From: Ketobacter alkanivorans
GTDB taxonomy: Bacteria; Pseudomonadota; Gammaproteobacteria; Pseudomonadales; Ketobacteraceae
Direction: 5' to 3'
DNA length: 64,000 nucleotides
Assembly: GCF_002863865.1 (NCBI RefSeq)
Contig: NZ_CP022684.1
Location: 248,001-312,000, forward strand
Within the stretch, counting starts at the first letter, position 1. Each line of letters begins with the position of its first letter. Below the pieces are notes generated by a model. The model saw only the letters and a program-made list of their open reading frames with translations. It ran no database searches and had not been told where the DNA came from. This document shows, piece by piece, positions 7,615-17,036 of the stretch. Made by a program: the position numbers and the translations under genes.

Positions 7615-10602
7615 ATGGCAGCCATCTATCAGACAGCCTATCCTCGAATCAAGTCAGATATCACAGAAGACGAATTGGGGGATATTTATACACCTACAAC
7701 GGAAGATCAGCGATGGGCTTTGCGTCACTGTAGACGGTCAAGCGCCTCTTTTTTGGGATTATTGGTTCAATTGAAGACGACACAACGTTTGGGCCGATTC
7801 GTTGGTCTTGGCGATATTCCCAAACCGATTATCGCGCATATCAAAACCCAGTGTCGCTCGCGGGTGACACAGCAGGACCTCCATACCTATTACACATCGG
7901 GCGCGAAGGACCGCCATGTAAAGCTGATTCGACGCCATCTCAATATCAAAGCCTACGATGCCGCTAAGACATCTGCATTGGCGCAGACTTGGGCACTGGA
8001 AGCAGCGACCACCAAGGCGGCATTACCGGATATTATCAATGTCACGCTGGAATATTTGGTCAAAGAGCGATACGAACTCCCGGCGTTCAGTGTACTTGAG
8101 CGTATCTGTCAGGCGGCCAGGGCTGAAGTCAACACTCGGTATTACGATCAATTGTGTGATTTTTTAGAGTCTGAAAGTCGCCAGTGCATTAACGATATTC
8201 TTCGATCCAGCACGGGGTTAAATGGTTTTGGTTGGAGTACTCTGAAAAATGAACCCAAACGCCCGACCCCTCGTAATATCCACGCGTACATCCAATACCT
8301 GGAGTGGCTGACATCTCTGCAAACCCTTTTACCCACGGATTTGGGGTTGCCGCCGGTGAAACACCAGCAATTTATCAACGAAGCCAAGGCCCTGGATTAC
8401 GCTGAGCTGATAAAGCTCCGGCTGAATAAGCGATTTGCACTCGTCATCGTCTTAATTCGCCACCAATACGCACAAACTTTGGATAATGCCGCCGATATAT
8501 TTATCAAGCTGCTGTTAAAAATGGATCGCTCGGCGCAAAAGCTGCTGGAGAAATATCTGGCAGACCATCAAAAGCAAACCGATCATTTGATTTCTGTGCT
8601 GTCTGGGACAGTTAAGGTGTATCTGGATAAGCCCGATTCGGTGACGGCCTTTGATCCGGTACTGGGAAAGAACAGTGATCAGCTACTGCAAATGTGCGAG
8701 CAATATATGGCATTCGCAGGCAACAACTATTTGCCGTTCATGGTTCAACTCTACAAAAAACAACGATCGACCTTATATCGCACGATTGAAATACTCAACC
8801 TGGCATCGGCCACGGAAGACAAGGATTTGCTCAATGCTTTTCAGTTTATTTTGAAGCACAAACAGCGTCGCACGGAGTTCCTGTCCATTCAGAACGATCC
8901 GAACGATCCATCTTCCAGGAATGTCATCAATATTCGCTGGATTCGAGAAAGCTGGTGGAAATTAGTCACGGGAAAATCAACCAAATCAGCACAGGTGACT
9001 GAGGTTAATAAAAGCTGTTTTGAGCTGTGTGTGTTTGAACGGATCGCTGAAGAACTGAGTACCGGTGACTTGTTCGTTCCCTACAGTGAAACCTTCGATG
9101 ATTACCGGGAGCAGATGATCACCTGGGAAGAATACGAAGCGCAGTTGCCTACCTATTGCGAGGAAGTAGGGCTCGTCGCCGGTGATACAGAATTTACAAG
9201 CTCCCTGAAGAAGTCGATGGAGGAAAGCTGTTGTAAAGCTGACAGCCGATTCCCTGATGACGAACTGGTTCGCATTGAAAATGGGAATCTAATTATTGGA
9301 AAGCCAAAACCGGATCAACCATCACCAGAAGTCGAAGAAATTGGAGCGCTATTGCGCGATCGATTGGACAAAATCAATGTGCTTGATGTGATTATCAATG
9401 TTGAAAAATGGCTGAACCTGAATAAACATTTTGGGCCGTTGTCGGGTTTTGAATCACGTATCAGTGACCCAGTGTTACGTTTTGTTCTGACCATATTTTG
9501 CTATGGCACTAATATCGGCCCCACCGAAACCGTACGTTCGGTGCAGGGCATATCTCGCAAGCAAGTCGCTTGGCTTAACCTAAAGCGCACCACAGAGGCC
9601 CGTCTCGATAAAGCCATTGCGAAAATCAATAGCGAGTACAAAAAATACCGGCTCATAGAGTGTTGGGGATCAGGCAACAGTGTGTCGGCCGACGGAAAAC
9701 TTTGGGATCTCTACGAAGATAATTTGCTATCTGAATACCATATTCGGTATGGCAGCTACGGCGGCATTGCCTATTACCACGTTTCGGACACCTATATTGC
9801 ATTGTTCAGCCGGTTTATTCCCTGCGGTGTCTACGAGGCGATTTATATCCTGGACGGCCTACTCAACGATGAATCTGATTTTAATCCGGACACCGTTCAC
9901 GGCGATACACAGGCGCAATCCACACCCGTCTTTGGCCTGGCGTACCTGCTGGGCATCAAGCTCATGCCGCGTATCCGAAATATCAAAGATCTCAGCTTTT
10001 ATAAACCTGATCGCTCCATGGTGCTCAAGCATGTTCAGTCCTTGTTTAAGGAACCGATCAAGTGGGATCTCATTGAAAAGCACTATGCGGATATGATGCG
10101 AACGGCCATGTCCGTTAAAGCAGGAAAAATCACCGCCTCGACAATCCTGCGCCGGTTCGGCACCAAGAACCGGAAAAACAAGCTGTACTTTGCGTTCCGA
10201 GAGCTTGGGCGCGTGGTTAGAACCATGTTTTTGCTGGAATACATTACCGACGTTGATCTACGCAAAACAATCCAGGCAGCGACCTGTAAGAGCGAAGAGT
10301 TCAATGAGTTTGCCCGGTGGTTGTTTTTTGCTAATGGCGGGAAAATTCCCGCAAACTTAAGACACGAACAAAGCAAAATCGTGAAATACAATCATTTGCT
10401 GGCCAACTTCGCGATCCTATACAACGTAAACGCGATGACCGAGGTGTTTAATCAATTGAAGTCGGAAGGGCACAATATCACTCGCGACCACATGGCCGCA
10501 TTCTCGCCGTACCACACCGAACACTTAGGCAGATTGGGAAGTTTTGAGCTAGATCTGACCAGGCAGGTCAAGCCCATGACTTTTGAGCTTCTTGTTGATT
10601 AA
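7615..10602 (+). CDS. tnpA: Tn3-family transposase TnpA
   Basis: Replicative DDE transposase, 995 residues, full length for the Tn3 family. The N-terminal DUF4158-like region contains LRHCRRSSASFLGLLVQLKT. The C-terminal catalytic domain shows the first Asp in SADGKLWDLYEDN (after ECWGSGNSV), the second Asp in VHGDTQAQSTPVFGLAYLLG, and the Glu in TCKSEEFNEFARWLFFANGG. No internal stop or frameshift is present, so the enzyme could be active. It is convergent with the tyrosine recombinase gene 314 bp downstream and divergent from the ATPase-mer unit, which may be its passenger. The 38-bp terminal repeats expected of the family were not recognised by eye in this window, so the transposon boundaries are unknown. 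Confidence 0.95.
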   Translation: MAAIYQTAYPRIKSDITEDELGDIYTPTTEDQRWALRHCRRSSASFLGLLVQLKTTQRLGRFVGLGDIPKPIIAHIKTQCRSRVTQQDLHTYYTSGAKDRHVKLIRRHLNIKAYDAAKTSALAQTWALEAATTKAALPDIINVTLEYLVKERYELPAFSVLERICQAARAEVNTRYYDQLCDFLESESRQCINDILRSSTGLNGFGWSTLKNEPKRPTPRNIHAYIQYLEWLTSLQTLLPTDLGLPPVKHQQFINEAKALDYAELIKLRLNKRFALVIVLIRHQYAQTLDNAADIFIKLLLKMDRSAQKLLEKYLADHQKQTDHLISVLSGTVKVYLDKPDSVTAFDPVLGKNSDQLLQMCEQYMAFAGNNYLPFMVQLYKKQRSTLYRTIEILNLASATEDKDLLNAFQFILKHKQRRTEFLSIQNDPNDPSSRNVINIRWIRESWWKLVTGKSTKSAQVTEVNKSCFELCVFERIAEELSTGDLFVPYSETFDDYREQMITWEEYEAQLPTYCEEVGLVAGDTEFTSSLKKSMEESCCKADSRFPDDELVRIENGNLIIGKPKPDQPSPEVEEIGALLRDRLDKINVLDVIINVEKWLNLNKHFGPLSGFESRISDPVLRFVLTIFCYGTNIGPTETVRSVQGISRKQVAWLNLKRTTEARLDKAIAKINSEYKKYRLIECWGSGNSVSADGKLWDLYEDNLLSEYHIRYGSYGGIAYYHVSDTYIALFSRFIPCGVYEAIYILDGLLNDESDFNPDTVHGDTQAQSTPVFGLAYLLGIKLMPRIRNIKDLSFYKPDRSMVLKHVQSLFKEPIKWDLIEKHYADMMRTAMSVKAGKITASTILRRFGTKNRKNKLYFAFRELGRVVRTMFLLEYITDVDLRKTIQAATCKSEEFNEFARWLFFANGGKIPANLRHEQSKIVKYNHLLANFAILYNVNAMTEVFNQLKSEGHNITRDHMAAFSPYHTEHLGRLGSFELDLTRQVKPMTFELLVD

Positions 10603-10916
10603 TGCTTTAAATTCAAATGGTTGCATTCCAAGTGGCTAAATTCAACGCTTTTACCGGCCGGACCTCTTACAGGGATGGGCATAGAAGTGGGTTGAATCCA
10701 AAGTGTGGGATGATCTCAAAATTGTCTAAGAGATATTGATAAACGATCAAGGCGTCAGGGCAAATTGAAAACCTCCTACATCGTCAATAGAGATTGAGGG
10801 TGATTCCACTACCATTCATGTCCTCTGAGAGAGTCCAGGCGCTTTTGTACTTCGTAGAGCGCCCCGAAGTCCCCTTTCCCGATCAGGCTCAGTAATCAAC
10901 GTGTACCGCCAGTTGA
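10603..10916. other. Gap between convergent transposase and recombinase genes
   Basis: This 314-bp stretch has no supported gene. A GGCGCT/AGCGCC inverted repeat occurs at about 10837-10862, without a T-run. A short minus-strand open stretch (10809-10895) encodes a piece resembling a kinase glycine loop but is too short to call. A Tn3 terminal repeat would be expected near here and was not found. Confidence 0.35.
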
Positions 10917-11708
10917 TTAGTTATGGCCGTTAGTTGGGGAAAGGTTCTTTAGCGCATCCTCGATCATCTCTTCAGGTGGCTCTTCATATATAAGCGTGGT
11001 TGATGGATTAACGTGCCCCGCTATTTTTTGCGCTATTTTCACCGATTTTTTCTGTTTATGGATCACATTGGTGATTAGCGATCGCCGACCACTGTGAGAG
11101 CTGGCTTTTTCTATTCCAGCCCAATCACGGAGCATTAATGCCATATGCTCTTGTAACGTGTTTGGAGAATATGCGCCGCCTTTTTGGGTGATAAAAAGAG
11201 GGGAGGAGGGCTTGAGTCGTTCCTCTTTAACCAAGCGAAGATGTAAGTATTCAGACAATGCCTCTCTGAGATCAGCATCAACCATTGGTAAATCTCGAGA
11301 CTTACCACGATGTTTCTTCACTGGCGGATAAAAGTTTTCTGGATCTATTTCAGCGCCCGATTTAGCAAGCGATTCGATTTGCCGAACCAGTTTATTAAAA
11401 CTGTCTATATCGAAGCTAATCGTATGACGGTGATATTTGGATTTGGAGCGTTTCATCGCATCAGCCCCCTTTGTATAGGAAGCTGGCAAACTAAGAACCT
11501 CGTATAGATGAAAATCCGTTCCGCTAGGATTAAGTCGAGCAACTTCTTTAATCTGGAGGAGCGATATTTCCTGGGCACGAAGGCCGAGCTTAAAGCTAAT
11601 CTGCATGATGGCCGTGTTCTTTTCAGGGTATCGATGTTGTTTGATAACATCAAACAGATATCGCTGCTGCTCTACGGTAGGAACTCTGGCTTGTCCAGAC
11701 TTGGGCAT
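10917..11708 (-). CDS. Tyrosine recombinase lacking the usual N-terminal core-binding domain
   Basis: Site-specific recombinase of the phage-integrase family, 263 residues. The catalytic set is visible: Arg44 in LGLRAQEISL, His205 and Arg208 in SSHSGRRSLI, His232 in AGHVNPSTT and the nucleophile Tyr241 in TLIYEEP. The catalytic Arg lies only 44 residues from the start, so the SAM-like DNA-clamping domain normally found ahead of it is missing. The middle carries a longer insert with basic residues (KRSKSKYHRH). It may act as the cointegrate resolvase of the adjacent Tn3-family element, as TnpI does in Tn4430, or as an element integrase; the neighbouring inverted repeat at 11735-11763 is a possible site. 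No upstream in-frame ATG that would supply the missing domain is seen. Confidence 0.85.
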   Translation of the reverse strand: MPKSGQARVPTVEQQRYLFDVIKQHRYPEKNTAIMQISFKLGLRAQEISLLQIKEVARLNPSGTDFHLYEVLSLPASYTKGADAMKRSKSKYHRHTISFDIDSFNKLVRQIESLAKSGAEIDPENFYPPVKKHRGKSRDLPMVDADLREALSEYLHLRLVKEERLKPSSPLFITQKGGAYSPNTLQEHMALMLRDWAGIEKASSHSGRRSLITNVIHKQKKSVKIAQKIAGHVNPSTTLIYEEPPEEMIEDALKNLSPTNGHN

Positions 11709-11734
11709 TTTGACCTCCGAGTAGGGATAGATTA

Positions 11735-11763
11735 AATCCGTAATAATAAGATTTTAACGGATT
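11735..11763. repeat. Inverted repeat between recombinase and antitoxin genes
   Basis: AATCCGT (11735-11741) and its complement ACGGATT (11757-11763) are separated by 15 AT-rich bases. It lies 27 bp upstream of the recombinase start, in the divergent intergenic region. It could be a recombinase binding site (resolution core) or an operator for the adjacent antitoxin-like protein. Confidence 0.45.
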
Positions 11764-11785
11764 ATAGTGATTTCGATAGTGAGGT

Positions 11786-11813
11786 TTGACATAGAGTTGC
11801 AATTTTCCACAAT
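11786..11813 (+). promoter_or_regulatory. Candidate promoter of the antitoxin-like gene
   Basis: TTGACA (11786-11791) is followed after 16 bp by CACAAT (11808-11813), 45 bp ahead of the ATG at 11858. The -35 is perfect and the -10 matches four of six consensus positions. Confidence 0.45.
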
Positions 11814-11857
11814 ACAACCAATATCATGATTTATCGGGAAAAAACCGGAGATCGAAC

Positions 11858-12205
11858 ATGAAATCTGAGATCGATATCGAAGTCGCCAAGAAACTTTTCC
11901 ATAAAATCGCTAGTGAATGGAGCCTTACAGCCGCAGAGATAAACGCTTTACTCGGTGGCACTGGAGACATCGATGATCGCCAATTAACCGAAGAAGATAT
12001 ATTGAAAATTTCCACGATAGCTGGAATCTACGGAGCACTACAGACCTTGTTTGTTGACGAGAGCCAATGGCGTGGTTGGGTCAGAAAGCCAAACAGCGAT
12101 TGGAACGGGCTATCCGCTTTGGATGTGATGATCTCTGGAAAGCTTGAAGATATTCAAAAGGTTCGAAATTATCTCTCCGCCTGGGGCGAACAGCACAACC
12201 TTTAA
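11858..12205 (+). CDS. Xre/MbcA/ParS toxin-binding domain antitoxin, apparently unpaired
   Basis: A 115-residue protein of the ParS/MbcA antitoxin type (DUF2384 group). Members normally neutralise a RES-domain NAD-degrading toxin encoded just downstream. The N-terminal helical part (IDIEVAKKLFHKIASEWSLT) resembles the Xre-like DNA-binding region. The C-terminal part has the diagnostic WVRKPNSDWNGLSALDVMIS followed by GKLEDIQKVRNYLSAW. No RES toxin frame follows: the next 770 bp hold no supported gene, only a dif-like site and weak open frames. It could be a solo regulator, a remnant of a pair, or a guard antitoxin carried by the adjacent Tn3-type element. The 149-bp upstream region is shared with the divergent recombinase. 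Confidence 0.82.
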   Translation: MKSEIDIEVAKKLFHKIASEWSLTAAEINALLGGTGDIDDRQLTEEDILKISTIAGIYGALQTLFVDESQWRGWVRKPNSDWNGLSALDVMISGKLEDIQKVRNYLSAWGEQHNL

Positions 12206-12983: not shown

Positions 12984-14021
12984 TTATAGCCCATGAGTAT
13001 AGTCGCGCAGATACTCCAGTGCCTGTACCCGCTTCAATTCCAAGGAGCTGAAGTACTCAGATCGGGCTCTGTCTAGTTCTACCATCCTATCTTGAGATGC
13101 CAGAGACTCTTCCACAAGAATCTGACCGCGCATAACCATCCATGCATCCACTCTGGATTGCCAATCCGAGCGTTGTTGATCCAGCTTTTCCAAGCGATCC
13201 GTAGCCGCCGAACCCACTACACTCTCCCGGATCTGGCGCAAGGCAGCAGCATCACCCTGCTCCATTTTCCATCCCTTTTTAAGTTGAGACAAAAGCTGAA
13301 GCCGGGATACCGAAGCTATCTGTTGTTTAATAGGCTCAGGCAGCGCCGCTTCGAGTTCGGCGATGGCTGCGGCCTTCTCGGTGGATGGTAGTTCTGTATT
13401 TTCTACTAACGCCAGCTTTGCCAAGGTGTATTCGTCGAATAGATCCTCTTCTTCGTAAAATGCGCGATCCACGTGAGGGCTAAGATAATGAGAGCGCAAT
13501 TCCAGAATCAGCTGCTTGTTATTGCGGAGAGTAGCAGAAGTCAATTCTCTTTCATCAGAAAATCGAAATGAATCGATCTTCATGTTACTTGGTTCATCCC
13601 CCATGGCTTCCCGTAATGCAAGATATTCCTCTAAGGCCTGTAAAGCCTGTACTGCGGCTAAATCCGGGAGCTGCCAGTTAATATAGGCTTTAATACGTCC
13701 GATGATCTGATCTTTCGGTTCTTCACCCACTGCATTCAGAAAAAAATCAAATACGCGACGTACATCGGAATTCAAAATCAGGTTACCCGCCGTATCGGGC
13801 TGCAATTCACCGTCCACCTGAATACCTTGCAAGGAGTTAGGCAATGACTCCAGTCCAGTAGTAAAAGGAGTCCGATTTATAAGGCGCCTGGTGTCCGAAC
13901 GATTGTCGCTACCGGGTTCGGGATTGAACACGATGCCCGATCCGGATTCTTGGTGGAAGATGAACAATGTAGTGCCGAAAATGACACCAAACAGTGCCGG
14001 AAATAAAAACCGCTTACGCAT
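12984..14021 (-). CDS. lif: Lipase-specific foldase (Lif, lipase chaperone)
   Basis: Membrane-anchored periplasmic chaperone that folds the partner lipase before type II secretion. The 345-residue protein has one N-terminal transmembrane anchor (LFPALFGVIFGTTLFIF). A variable linker and the long helical lipase-embracing domain follow. The family signature Rx1x2FDY is present as RRVFDFFLNAVGE, near residues 88-100. It starts 1 nt after the lipase stop codon, so the two are translationally coupled, as is usual for family I.1/I.2 lipases. Foldases are specific to their lipase, so the pair should be treated as a unit. Confidence 0.93.
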   Translation of the reverse strand: MRKRFLFPALFGVIFGTTLFIFHQESGSGIVFNPEPGSDNRSDTRRLINRTPFTTGLESLPNSLQGIQVDGELQPDTAGNLILNSDVRRVFDFFLNAVGEEPKDQIIGRIKAYINWQLPDLAAVQALQALEEYLALREAMGDEPSNMKIDSFRFSDERELTSATLRNNKQLILELRSHYLSPHVDRAFYEEEDLFDEYTLAKLALVENTELPSTEKAAAIAELEAALPEPIKQQIASVSRLQLLSQLKKGWKMEQGDAAALRQIRESVVGSAATDRLEKLDQQRSDWQSRVDAWMVMRGQILVEESLASQDRMVELDRARSEYFSSLELKRVQALEYLRDYTHGL

Positions 14022-14022
14022 G

Positions 14023-14958
14023 TCAAAGACCTTGCAGTTTCAAACGGTTCGCGTGCTGGCGAAACAGTGCTTTTGGGTTTGGATTGAACATACCGACCAT
14101 CCCGAAGAAATGATTAATCTCATCCAGGTGATTCATACGGTAATCGTCTCTGATGACTGTGCCCAGATGACTACCACAGCGTTCCACTAGTCCATCATTT
14201 TCAGTCGGGAACAGCGTTGCAGTCAGCGCAAATACATAGTCCGCAGGATCAAAGTAATTATTGAACGGCTTGGTACCGCTCCATGAATAATAACGTACCC
14301 CATCGACGACAGGTTCACCTTCACCACATTCCTCCAATGGAACGCCAGCAGGGTAATTGGCATTAAATTCTGTGGCGCCTATTGTGGATAGAGAATATAG
14401 GGTGCCACGTGGGTCTCTGGGCAGGGATATATCATTGTTTGTCTCCAGCAGTCGGTTATAGAGTGACGTCACCAATTCCATAACACCGTCTACCACAACG
14501 CCGATAACCGGTGTATCCAATGCGGAAATCACTAAGTCCACCGCTTTGGTGCCAAAGGTCGGTGAACCAATCGTGGTAACAGATGCAACCTTTTCAGGAG
14601 CAACCCCCGCAGCATAACGCACGGTCGGGCCTCCCTGACTATGACCGATTAAGTTCACTTTATCTGCACCGGTTATTGCTAGAATGGTCTCAATTTCAAC
14701 CAACAATTGCTCGCCACGCATTTCATTCAGGCCAAAAGGTGATACTTGAACGACATGAACATCAGCACCATGTTTTGCCATGTCCTGGGGAATTCCATAC
14801 CAATAGTCAATAGGGCCGATTTTATCGAAACCGAACGTTCCATGAACAAGCACAATGGGGTAACGGGTCTTGGCGTATTCGTCGGCATTTGCGATGACTG
14901 AAAAAAGAAATACAGTAAGACTCAATACGCTAAGAAACATCTGCTTTTTTGTTTTCAT
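14023..14958 (-). CDS. lip: Secreted triacylglycerol lipase (foldase-dependent, family I)
   Basis: Extracellular alpha/beta-hydrolase that hydrolyses triacylglycerols. It has a Sec signal peptide (core LSVLSLTVFLFSVIANA). The oxyanion-hole segment is VLVHGTFGFD and the nucleophile elbow is GHSQGG with Ser at about 107. The catalytic Asp is probably in TENDGLVERCG and the His in MNHLDEINHFFG. Two Cys (LEECGEG and VERCGSH) can form the conserved disulfide, and nearby Asp residues fit the calcium site. ATG 14958 has GGAG 6 nt upstream; ATG 14961 is the alternative. A 38-bp palindromic element lies 77 bp upstream, shared with the oxygenase gene at 16947. Confidence 0.94.
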   Translation of the reverse strand: MKTKKQMFLSVLSLTVFLFSVIANADEYAKTRYPIVLVHGTFGFDKIGPIDYWYGIPQDMAKHGADVHVVQVSPFGLNEMRGEQLLVEIETILAITGADKVNLIGHSQGGPTVRYAAGVAPEKVASVTTIGSPTFGTKAVDLVISALDTPVIGVVVDGVMELVTSLYNRLLETNNDISLPRDPRGTLYSLSTIGATEFNANYPAGVPLEECGEGEPVVDGVRYYSWSGTKPFNNYFDPADYVFALTATLFPTENDGLVERCGSHLGTVIRDDYRMNHLDEINHFFGMVGMFNPNPKALFRQHANRLKLQGL

Positions 14959-15034
14959 CATATGCTCCGATGTTTAGGATCCACGCTTTAACTATTGCAC
15001 AGCTCTAGAACGTTCAGCTGCATGAAGGGATACA

Positions 15035-15072
15035 ATGATAATCCGAGCTTAAGCTTGATTAAACTCGGATAT
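15035..15072. promoter_or_regulatory. Palindromic operator copy 1, upstream of lipase and tetR
   Basis: A 38-bp element with an outer 15-mer ATGATAATCCGAGCT and a right 13-mer TAAACTCGGATAT around a 10-bp variable centre. The core is ATCCGAG-N16-CTCGGAT. The 15-mer and 13-mer are identical in copy 2 (16999-17036), in the same orientation relative to the leftward gene. It lies in the 321-bp gap between the divergent lipase and TetR genes and is probably bound by that TetR. Nothing else clear is seen in the gap. Confidence 0.72.
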
Positions 15073-15279
15073 CGGATGTACTCTAGGCGGTAGCGTTTAT
15101 TCGTCTAACGTATTGTAATTAAGGGTTATATTTTGTGTTCTACAGTGAAGTTCAGCTAAGAAAGGGCTTCCAACTCCGTTCAAAACTCATGTTTTAGCAA
15201 GTTAACCATTCGGAGCGGTCATACCAGAACATTCCGTAATGTTTCTCGCTGCAAACCCGAGCAGGATGCAAGCAAACAT

Positions 15280-15900
15280 ATGACGACTGAACAAATCGAT
15301 CTAAAAATGAGGAAGATTCCGCGCCAAGCTCGCTCTAAGGCTTCTGTTGATGCGATCATTCAAGCCTGCAGACGAATACTGGTAAAGCGGGGATACGAAG
15401 CCCTCACCACTAATGAAATAGCACGTGTGGCTGGTGTCAGCGTAGGGTCATTGTACGAGTATTTTCCAGGAAAAGAGGCTGTGGTTGCCGCCATGGTAAG
15501 GGATATGGCAGACCGCTATTTCCAGACACTCAAATCTGAGATAACGGCTAAACACAATAACAGTTATGAAAACGCCATGCGCCACTGGGTTGGATTACTT
15601 TTCAACTTAGTTCAGGAAAACAAACGGCTGGTACAGGTATTGGTATTTGATGTGCCTTACAGTTTTAAAATTATTCCTTTTGATACAATTACAACCGAGT
15701 TTTTCAATATCGTGATGAAAGGAGCAGCCCGTTCACAGAATCAGTATAAGTTAGAAGTGACCCCAGAGATATTGTATCTTATCTCTACGACCACAGCAGG
15801 CACGCTCACAGGCCTTGTCTTTGCTCCATCGCCTTATGTTGATAAAGAAAGGGTTCTGGATCAGCTCGCAAACAAAATAGCAGCATGGATGACCCAATAA
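15280..15900 (+). CDS. TetR family transcriptional regulator
   Basis: Ligand-responsive DNA-binding regulator of 206 residues. The N-terminal HTH is clear: TTNEIARVAGVSVGSLYEYF (about residues 47-66) followed by PGKEAVVAAMV. The C-terminal helical ligand domain (ALTHWVG-type region from residue 85) is of the kind found in regulators of lipid or alkane genes, but the ligand cannot be deduced. It sits between the lipase-foldase operon and the MpaB-like oxygenase, each preceded by the same 38-bp palindrome. I infer that it controls both, and possibly itself, because copy 1 lies in its own upstream region. Confidence 0.88.
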   Translation: MTTEQIDLKMRKIPRQARSKASVDAIIQACRRILVKRGYEALTTNEIARVAGVSVGSLYEYFPGKEAVVAAMVRDMADRYFQTLKSEITAKHNNSYENAMRHWVGLLFNLVQENKRLVQVLVFDVPYSFKIIPFDTITTEFFNIVMKGAARSQNQYKLEVTPEILYLISTTTAGTLTGLVFAPSPYVDKERVLDQLANKIAAWMTQ

Positions 15901-15966
15901 TCCTGTCTAAGCAAGACGTGCAGGACGCTTTCTACCAATGTTAATCGCAGCATCAAAAAATAATCT

Positions 15967-16947
15967 TTATCTAACCAGGCTGGGCCTGCCGATCATTTGC
16001 TGGTTCAGCCTCTCCAGCATACGATCCCGTTTCGTATTGCCATTAATCCGCAAAATGGCTTCGTGATACGCAGGTACGTTGGCCAATTTTCTCGGCAACA
16101 GTTTGTTGATCACTTTCAAAAAACGCTGAACACGCTTGGCAGTTCTCATATTGTTGGGCGTGGCTTGAGGTTGATCCAGCATCACTTGAATTGATTGAGG
16201 CAGTGATACGCACAAAAACGTCCATACAGGGGATCGTATGGGTCGTGGCAGGGTGTTTTCCAGAAAACTTCTTATAGCGAACCCAGCATCGGTTCTACCC
16301 AGTGTGTCCGATTGGCTCACCATAGCAATATAGTCCTCCACTTCCTGCCAGGTTTGCGGATGCATGTCTTCAGGGATACCAAAGCAAAACGCGTAACGAA
16401 TGGCTTCCTGACAGAACTGATCCAGCTGCTGTGGCGTCAAAGGCTTTATCAATGCCTGATATAATTTCACTCGGCTGTAGAAGGCCGTTACATGCACCCA
16501 AAGCAATGCATTAACTTCATTTGCCTGATAGTGATTGCCTGTCAGATGACGACCAGCGGGCTGAGACAACTCACCTTGCACCCGGCTATGCACCTTGAAT
16601 AGAGCTTTGGCTTTGTTCTGCACCATATTCAAATCGCCGTAGATGAGGGACCACAAATAAGTATAGGTCAGCTGGGCGCGCTGCTTGGGATCGGACATAA
16701 TTTTGGAATGTTCAAATACAGCAGTGGCGATCCATGGGTGGCACAGCTGCATCTGCACCGATTGAACGGCACCAAGGAAGTAAACCAGCGTATGGCGATT
16801 CACCTCCCAAAAAACGGAATCCGGACCAAACAATCCAACCTTGGGATCTCTCACAAATCCGGCAATACCATTTAAAAAAGGGCTGATTTCTTCTTCGGAA
16901 AGATAGGAAGGCGCAATTACTTCATTGTTATCGTGTGGAGTCTGCAT
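15967..16947 (-). CDS. MpaB-like oxygenase family protein (DUF2236)
   Basis: A 326-residue protein of the DUF2236/MpaB family, which includes fungal MpaB' oxygenase and the bacterial latex-clearing rubber oxygenase; many members bind haem b. Family-like segments are FGPDSVFWEVNRHTLVYFLG (residues 41-60), QLCHPWIATAVFEHS with a conserved His-Pro, and the helical RHLTGNHYQANEVNALLWVH with HxA/WVH near residue 150. No signal peptide is seen. The substrate is unknown; lipids or alkanes are plausible given the lipase neighbour. It is convergent with the TetR gene (67 nt apart) and carries operator copy 2 in front of it, at 52 bp. Confidence 0.82.
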   Translation of the reverse strand: MQTPHDNNEVIAPSYLSEEEISPFLNGIAGFVRDPKVGLFGPDSVFWEVNRHTLVYFLGAVQSVQMQLCHPWIATAVFEHSKIMSDPKQRAQLTYTYLWSLIYGDLNMVQNKAKALFKVHSRVQGELSQPAGRHLTGNHYQANEVNALLWVHVTAFYSRVKLYQALIKPLTPQQLDQFCQEAIRYAFCFGIPEDMHPQTWQEVEDYIAMVSQSDTLGRTDAGFAIRSFLENTLPRPIRSPVWTFLCVSLPQSIQVMLDQPQATPNNMRTAKRVQRFLKVINKLLPRKLANVPAYHEAILRINGNTKRDRMLERLNQQMIGRPSLVR

Positions 16948-16998
16948 ACTTCAGGATCCTTGTTTTTGTACTAGGTTGGGATCTTAAATGGAAAGCAC

Positions 16999-17036
16999 AT
17001 GATAATCCGAGCTAAAAGGCCGATAAACTCGGATAT
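16999..17036. promoter_or_regulatory. Palindromic operator copy 2, upstream of the MpaB-like gene
   Basis: Same architecture as copy 1: ATGATAATCCGAGCT (16999-17013), ten variable bases, TAAACTCGGATAT (17024-17036), giving ATCCGAG-N16-CTCGGAT. The shared bases are 28 of 38. It lies 52 bp ahead of the oxygenase start. The rest of the gap to 17408 shows no gene and no other clear signal. Confidence 0.72.

Follow-up and report, generated by a model that had tools for sequence, protein, structure and literature searches.

A TetR-family regulator and its probable operators at a lipase-foldase operon and an MPAB-type oxygenase gene in Ketobacter alkanivorans

Two similar 38-bp elements in the genome of Ketobacter alkanivorans are probably operators of TetR1, the TetR-family regulator encoded between the two gene units that they precede. 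TetR1 would repress the promoters of a lipase-foldase operon and of an MPAB/DUF2236 oxygenase gene until a ligand releases it, and the lipase operon would have been recruited to an older module. We give this reading, which is built on sequence comparison, a probability of about three in four. Coordinates below refer to the window, the whole stretch of 64,000 nucleotides that was analysed (positions 248,001 to 312,000 of NZ_CP022684.1), unless a contig or locus is named.

Two elements between the genes of the cluster

Both elements have the form ATGATAATCCGAGCT-N10-TAAACTCGGATAT, and 30 of their 38 bases are identical. An earlier note on this DNA had described them as near-identical, equally oriented and sharing the core ATCCGAG-N16-CTCGGAT, which is indeed exact in both (15041-15070 and 17005-17034). 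The distances to the start codons had to be corrected from 77 and 52 bp to 73 bp for the lipase and 51 bp for the DUF2236 oxygenase. The features of the cluster are the following:

12984..14021, minus strand: lipase-specific foldase (lipase secretion chaperone), 345 aa; Lipase_chap PF03280, 1.8e-32
14023..14961, minus strand: family I.1-type lipase, 312 aa; alpha/beta hydrolase PF00561, 1.3e-17
15035..15040, minus strand: putative -10 box TATCAT of the lipase-foldase promoter, suggested by the conserved TAnnAT
15035..15072, plus strand: candidate operator 1, between the lipase (minus strand) and TetR (plus strand) genes, 35.7 bits on the operator model; half-sites ATCCGAG 15041-15047, weak middle CTTGAT 15054-15059, CTCGGAT 15064-15070
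15280..15900, plus strand: TetR1, TetR-family regulator, 206 aa, candidate repressor; TetR_N PF00440, 2.3e-15
15967..16947, minus strand: MPAB1, candidate MPAB/Lcp-type (DUF2236) haem oxygenase, 326 aa; MPAB_Lcp_cat PF09995, 2.2e-34
16999..17004, minus strand: putative -10 box TATCAT of the MPAB gene promoter, suggested by the conserved TAnnAT
16999..17036, plus strand: candidate operator 2, same orientation as operator 1, upstream of the MPAB/DUF2236 gene, 35.5 bits on the operator model; first half-site 17005-17011, weak middle GGCCGA 17018-17023, third 17028-17034

The exact core occurs twice in the 4,914,503-base genome, both times in the window, while 0.018 occurrences are expected by chance. 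Nine further places in the 4.91-Mb genome match it with two mismatches. At up to three mismatches, the pattern is not clearly commoner in the whole genome than its reversed counterpart used as control (98 versus 87 forward places). Thus, the specificity resides in the near-exact copies, and the search at three mismatches is uninformative on further targets.

The gene identities proposed in the note agree with the Pfam matches (Lipase_chap, alpha/beta hydrolase, TetR_N and MPAB_Lcp_cat). The predicted structure of TetR1 (pLDDT 85.9) has the TetR fold, with an N-terminal TetR_N helix-turn-helix and a modelled all-helical ligand domain, and the TetR recognition region is nearly invariant across 27 homologues. 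The N-terminus of the lipase resembles a signal peptide by eye. The foldase gene is located directly downstream of the lipase gene, and its product matches NF002334 at 3e-66 with 223.8 bits, under the curated cut-off of 285.

MPAB1 carries R90-x3-T94 and H120, the latter invariant in 8 aligned MPABs. According to the accessible portions of PMC5522427 and PMC6311187, R-x3-T and His residues hold the haem in Lcp; the His of MPAB1 follows the Thr by 26 residues, compared with 30 in Lcp (PMC5522427, same portion). The structure model of MPAB1 is poor (mean pLDDT 55.9) and gives no more than a hint, its best fold matches being the t-anethole oxygenase 8s1j and the Lcp 5o1l, both weak (E 0.02-0.2). 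At the sequence level, MPAB1 has no match among solved structures up to E 0.1. It is one of a numerous kind, with 13 MPAB/DUF2236 matches at E<=1e-10 in the 4.9-Mb genome.

Just left of the lipase cluster, at 7615-12205, the window contains genes for a Tn3-family transposase (PF01526) and a phage-type integrase (PF00589). A gene with an Xre/MbcA/ParS-type antitoxin domain (PF09722) is located in the same region.

The element accompanies TetR homologues

Before aligning anything, we scanned 73 loci with TetR homologues for the pattern of the earlier note, allowing spacers of 14-18. Among the 16 closest loci (L034-L048 and L050; 38-72% identity), 13 have the element at up to two mismatches, always with a spacer of 16 and mostly just upstream of tetR. 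The chance expectation, derived from 11 distinct places at up to two mismatches in the own genome, is about 0.02 per 8.6-kb locus. In L042 and L050 the copy that precedes tetR has diverged further. No element precedes the tetR of L036, but at a distance of 2.3 kb on the same contig (G008:C17) an MPAB gene has a 22.8-bit site in its upstream region. That homologues elsewhere carry the element beside their own genes argues that TetR1 is very probably the regulator acting on the two elements, as the note had supposed from its place between the two units.

The distance from the operator core to the tetR start is 209 bp for TetR1, 161 bp for L034 and 12-27 bp for the six other relatives measured. 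The 209 bp make autoregulation by TetR1 unsure. Operator 1 is kept in the genome of L034 (G001; PAPM01000023.1), the other genome found with the whole cluster, and by eye the operators are the best-conserved non-coding stretches upstream of genes between this genome and that of the window. Among 171 plasmid records, the best match to TetR1 was 32% identical over most of the protein (Ensifer).

Alignment of 21 operators without gaps revealed three half-sites in the relatives, ATCCGAG-N6-CTCGGA-N4-CTCGGAT. The third is the best conserved, with ACTCGG in all 21. The middle half-site has decayed in the window, where each copy matches 3 of 6 bases, and this is why a simple palindrome had been seen at first. 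The elements themselves are real, but what had been proposed as a 38-bp palindrome corresponds to the two outer half-sites of an operator that has three.

Operators in the genome, the family and the order

R1, the operator model, is a sequence model built from the 21 operators. In the 4.91-Mb genome it found three strong sites with 39.1, 35.7 and 35.5 bits, the next match having 13.2 bits. The third site (C1:3201541) lies between a second MPAB gene (MPAB2) and a second TetR gene (TetR2, C1:3201616). The small dedicated regulon that had been proposed is therefore small, but with this neighbourhood it may not be private to TetR1. The second TetR-operator-MPAB unit (L139:4618-6252; G000:C1, approximately 3200617-3202251) adjoins an SDR-like gene.

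The third site between TetR2 and MPAB2 raises the possibility of a two-repressor network, in which all three operators are under the paralogue TetR2, acting by itself or jointly with TetR1. The 42% identity of TetR1 and TetR2 and the near-invariant recognition region shared by the aligned TetRs are in line with this. However, half-site 1 of the TetR2 type (ACTAAG, ACCAAG or ACTGAG) differs from that of the window operators, and the TetR2-type middle half-site is slightly better (4 of 6 bases, versus 3 of 6 in the window). Further, two genomes with a TetR2-type and no TetR1-type regulator at E<=1e-20 (G003 and G005) have lipase homologues without a strong operator. We consider such a network unlikely, and control of both window operators by TetR1 remains the preferred reading.

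In the 15 genomes of the family, 17 sites reach at least 22 bits. The left-hand genes at these sites comprise 14 for an MPAB, 2 for a lipase and 1 for an SDR; in G012 and G014 only the location of the Pfam match, approximately 460 bp from the operator and within a 417-aa open frame, supports the MPAB call. Ten of the 15 genomes contain a strong operator, and the same 10 contain a TetR at E<=1e-20. This co-occurrence arises partly by construction: the operators behind the model were themselves collected next to TetR genes, which ties the model to the presence of a TetR, and neighbouring genomes are not independent of each other either. G004, G006, G007, G009 and G013 have neither a strong operator nor a TetR at E<=1e-20 (G007 is 54% and G013 87% complete). 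A lipase faces the operator in only 2 of the 15 genomes. Operators are present at both the lipase and the oxygenase, which the note had joined in one regulon, but the oxygenase is the more constant partner. Other lipase-foldase pairs exist in the family, one of them in the window genome (L124), and no strong operator was found beside any of these.

At the level of the order (390 genomes), R1 gave 22 matches at E<=0.001 in 15 genomes, namely the 17 of the own family and 5 of family f43. The latter match Alcanivorax loci, and all 5 are located between an SDR and a TetR gene. A TetR of this group is encoded within 1.5 kb of 21 of the 22 matches, and at 2.3 kb in the case of G008:C17. G022 and G039, which are outside the family, have a TetR at E<=1e-20 but are not among the genomes with an R1 match. 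Besides the genome of the window, R1 matched one other among 369 genomes of the class, G701; this 23.1-bit site falls within a cyclase-like open frame, the 3 kb inspected contain no TetR, and the match was counted as false.

Several further loci deserve mention. Weak operator-like sites of 21.3 bits (L133:3291-3334, G001:C27) and 17.2 bits (G003:C8:52586-52611) are situated between a diverged TetR gene and an MPAB gene, and by eye both adjoin genes resembling SDR and P450. In G039, the region upstream of a 30%-identical TetR (L027:1350-1505) contains CCTGAG, CTCGGT and CTCGGT with a 5-base second spacer, and was missed by R1. Loci L131 and L132 (G008:C17:70000-104424) combine a cholesterol oxidase-type gene (PF09129) with a TetR of this subfamily, and there are five MPAB matches on the contig. 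This cluster is a hint that points to sterol- or isoprenoid-like substrates.

Operators and putative promoters

On the strand of the leftward gene, half-site 1 is flanked by TAnnAT in 19 and by TAnnnT in all 21 operators. Positions of the TAnnnT type are the best conserved ones in -10 boxes of sigma-70 promoters. The asymmetric ATGATA extension of the element is best interpreted as a -10 box that serves the leftward gene, and the conserved TAnnAT suggests that the palindromic operator overlaps the promoter of the neighbouring gene. The -35 region of the putative lipase promoter is weak by eye (TTTAAT at 17 bp), and a scan with the sigma-70 consensus called no promoter at either operator, the -35 boxes being weak.

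Weak -35 boxes and uncalled sigma-70 promoters are also encountered at activator-dependent promoters, and both copies of the element are oriented alike relative to their genes. This would fit if the binder were an activator, or belonged to a different regulator family, and the TetR were only a neighbour. We regard it as very unlikely, because in other genomes, too, the element goes together with homologous TetR genes, and because its place on the putative -10 region is unusual for an activator. Chance or mobile repeats or leader RNA hairpins, suggested by the inverted repeats and by the Tn3-type transposase and integrase approximately 3-7 kb away, were rejected on copy number and position as extremely unlikely, since many copies were sought and no other exact copy exists in the genome, the 16-base spacing is kept in other genera, and the element lies upstream of the inferred transcription start.

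History of the regulon and the wider TetR family

In a tree of 33 TetR proteins, TetR1 pairs with the TetR of L034 (100/100). The sister of this pair is L035, whose target is an SDR (95/91), followed by L036 with an MPAB target (96/92). Since the next relatives target SDR and MPAB, the lipase is best read as a derived target. On this sequence-based view the regulon would be centred on MPAB oxygenases, and recruitment of the lipase-foldase operon to an older TetR-operator-MPAB/SDR module is the best reading. MPAB1 is only about 20-23% identical to the MPAB2 group, which indicates that oxygenases of different subfamilies came under the same kind of operator.

The 25 loci L049-L073 (24 more distant ones and L050) were analysed for a three-half-site element with a 7-base second spacer, located within 150 bp upstream of the tetR match and scoring at least 15 of 19. 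It was present in 13 of them and in 10 of 2404 control windows; the count is not a blind test, since the half-sites and the spacer were chosen after some of these loci had been viewed. From the control, the tetR region was excluded on only one of the strands, a bias that acts against the claim. Left-hand genes at the four Pfam-scanned loci encode cytochrome P450 (L062 and L065), a GST-like protein (L064) and a molybdopterin oxidoreductase (L049). By their titles, L059 is from Sorangium and L060 from Polyangiaceae. R2, the model with spacing 7, gave no match at E<=1e-4 when run against the 390 order-level genomes, and in the genome of the window nothing scored better than E 0.2; this is a weak result, since no genome known to hold such a site is among those searched.

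A tentative possibility is that this TetR subfamily senses an oxidisable hydrophobic compound (an isoprenoid, a sterol or an unsaturated lipid) and has its own three-half-site code. The code would have been kept in Ketobacter-like bacteria, in Alcanivorax and, with a second spacer longer by three bases, in other Gammaproteobacteria, Sorangium and Polyangiaceae. The enzyme under control would have been swapped among MPAB oxygenases, SDRs, cytochromes P450, GST-like proteins and molybdopterin oxidoreductases, and the lipase would have been wired in in the lineage of the window.

Proposed mechanism and known systems

According to the preferred reading, TetR1 would bind the inverted half-sites ATCCGAG/CTCGGAT, perhaps as two dimers like QacR. 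Bound TetR1 would cover both core promoters, that of the lipase-foldase operon and that of the MPAB gene, where half-site 1 directly adjoins the putative -10 box, and RNA polymerase would thereby be excluded. A ligand, plausibly a lipid, an isoprenoid or a steroid-like compound, would free TetR1 from the operators, upon which secreted lipase, foldase and oxygenase would be made together. As for the compound involved, a lipid or isoprenoid that bears an alkene and is set free by the lipase would be a reasonable guess, but no more. This guess draws on Lcp, which cleaves the double bonds of polyisoprene (PMC5522427, available part), and on anethole oxygenase, which in the accessible part of PMC3774712 oxidises trans-anethole to p-anisaldehyde and is called a flavoprotein.

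For a single TetR dimer, a core of 30 bp is long. QacR binds its 28-bp operator as two dimers (PMC6018408, in the portion available), and the window operators resemble it in being long with widely spaced arms; by this analogy the two-dimer mode may perhaps apply here. In contrast to QacR, the relatives of the window operator have a third, asymmetric half-site. Of the known regulators for fatty acyl-CoA and sterols, FadR (Bacillus), DesT and KstR share the overall TetR fold with TetR1, and KstR, FadR and Mce3R show a loose sequence kinship with it. However, identity in the fold matches is approximately 15-20%, and the NCBIfam models match far below their cut-offs.

TetR-type local repressors are a known kind of regulator. 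In actinobacteria, LcpR regulators control genes of rubber oxygenases (Lcp, DUF2236) via palindromic operators, as stated in the accessible part of PMC7413915. The likeness to the system described here lies in a regulator with palindromic operators on DUF2236 oxygenase genes, and in the DUF2236/MPAB domain and the R-x3-T and His residues of MPAB1. The LcpRVH2 palindrome lcp2 contains ACTCGG, as does half-site 3. Identity of the operators was rejected, since on the operator profile the LcpRVH2 palindromes given there score no better than shuffles (64 and 83 of 300 reach them). The two systems differ in that Lcp is a secreted actinobacterial rubber oxygenase, for which that part of PMC7413915 describes no lipase partner.

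The lipase belongs with the LipA type of Pseudomonas aeruginosa: its nearest solved structure is the lactonizing lipase 1ex9 of this species (E 1.2e-84), and lipase and foldase genes are adjacent. The TetR-type operator at the window lipase sets it apart; P. aeruginosa LipA is controlled by other systems. Among the literature matches listed, subscription papers aside, neither the operator nor a TetR-lipase-MPAB regulon is described; PMC11229326, in its accessible part, concerns the SorC family. As far as these matches show, the operator, the link of the subfamily to MPAB oxygenases and the wiring of the lipase-foldase operon are new.

The identification of this operator is important for several reasons. 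MPAB/DUF2236 oxygenases are numerous in these bacteria, and a TetR with a defined operator offers a direct route to the substrate of MPAB1 via the inducer. Further, the case shows how a regulator and its operator are kept while the target enzyme is exchanged. Last, if the subfamily is indeed a sensor of an oxidisable hydrophobic compound, the release of an ester and the oxidative cleavage of one and the same substrate would be induced together in the lineage of the window.
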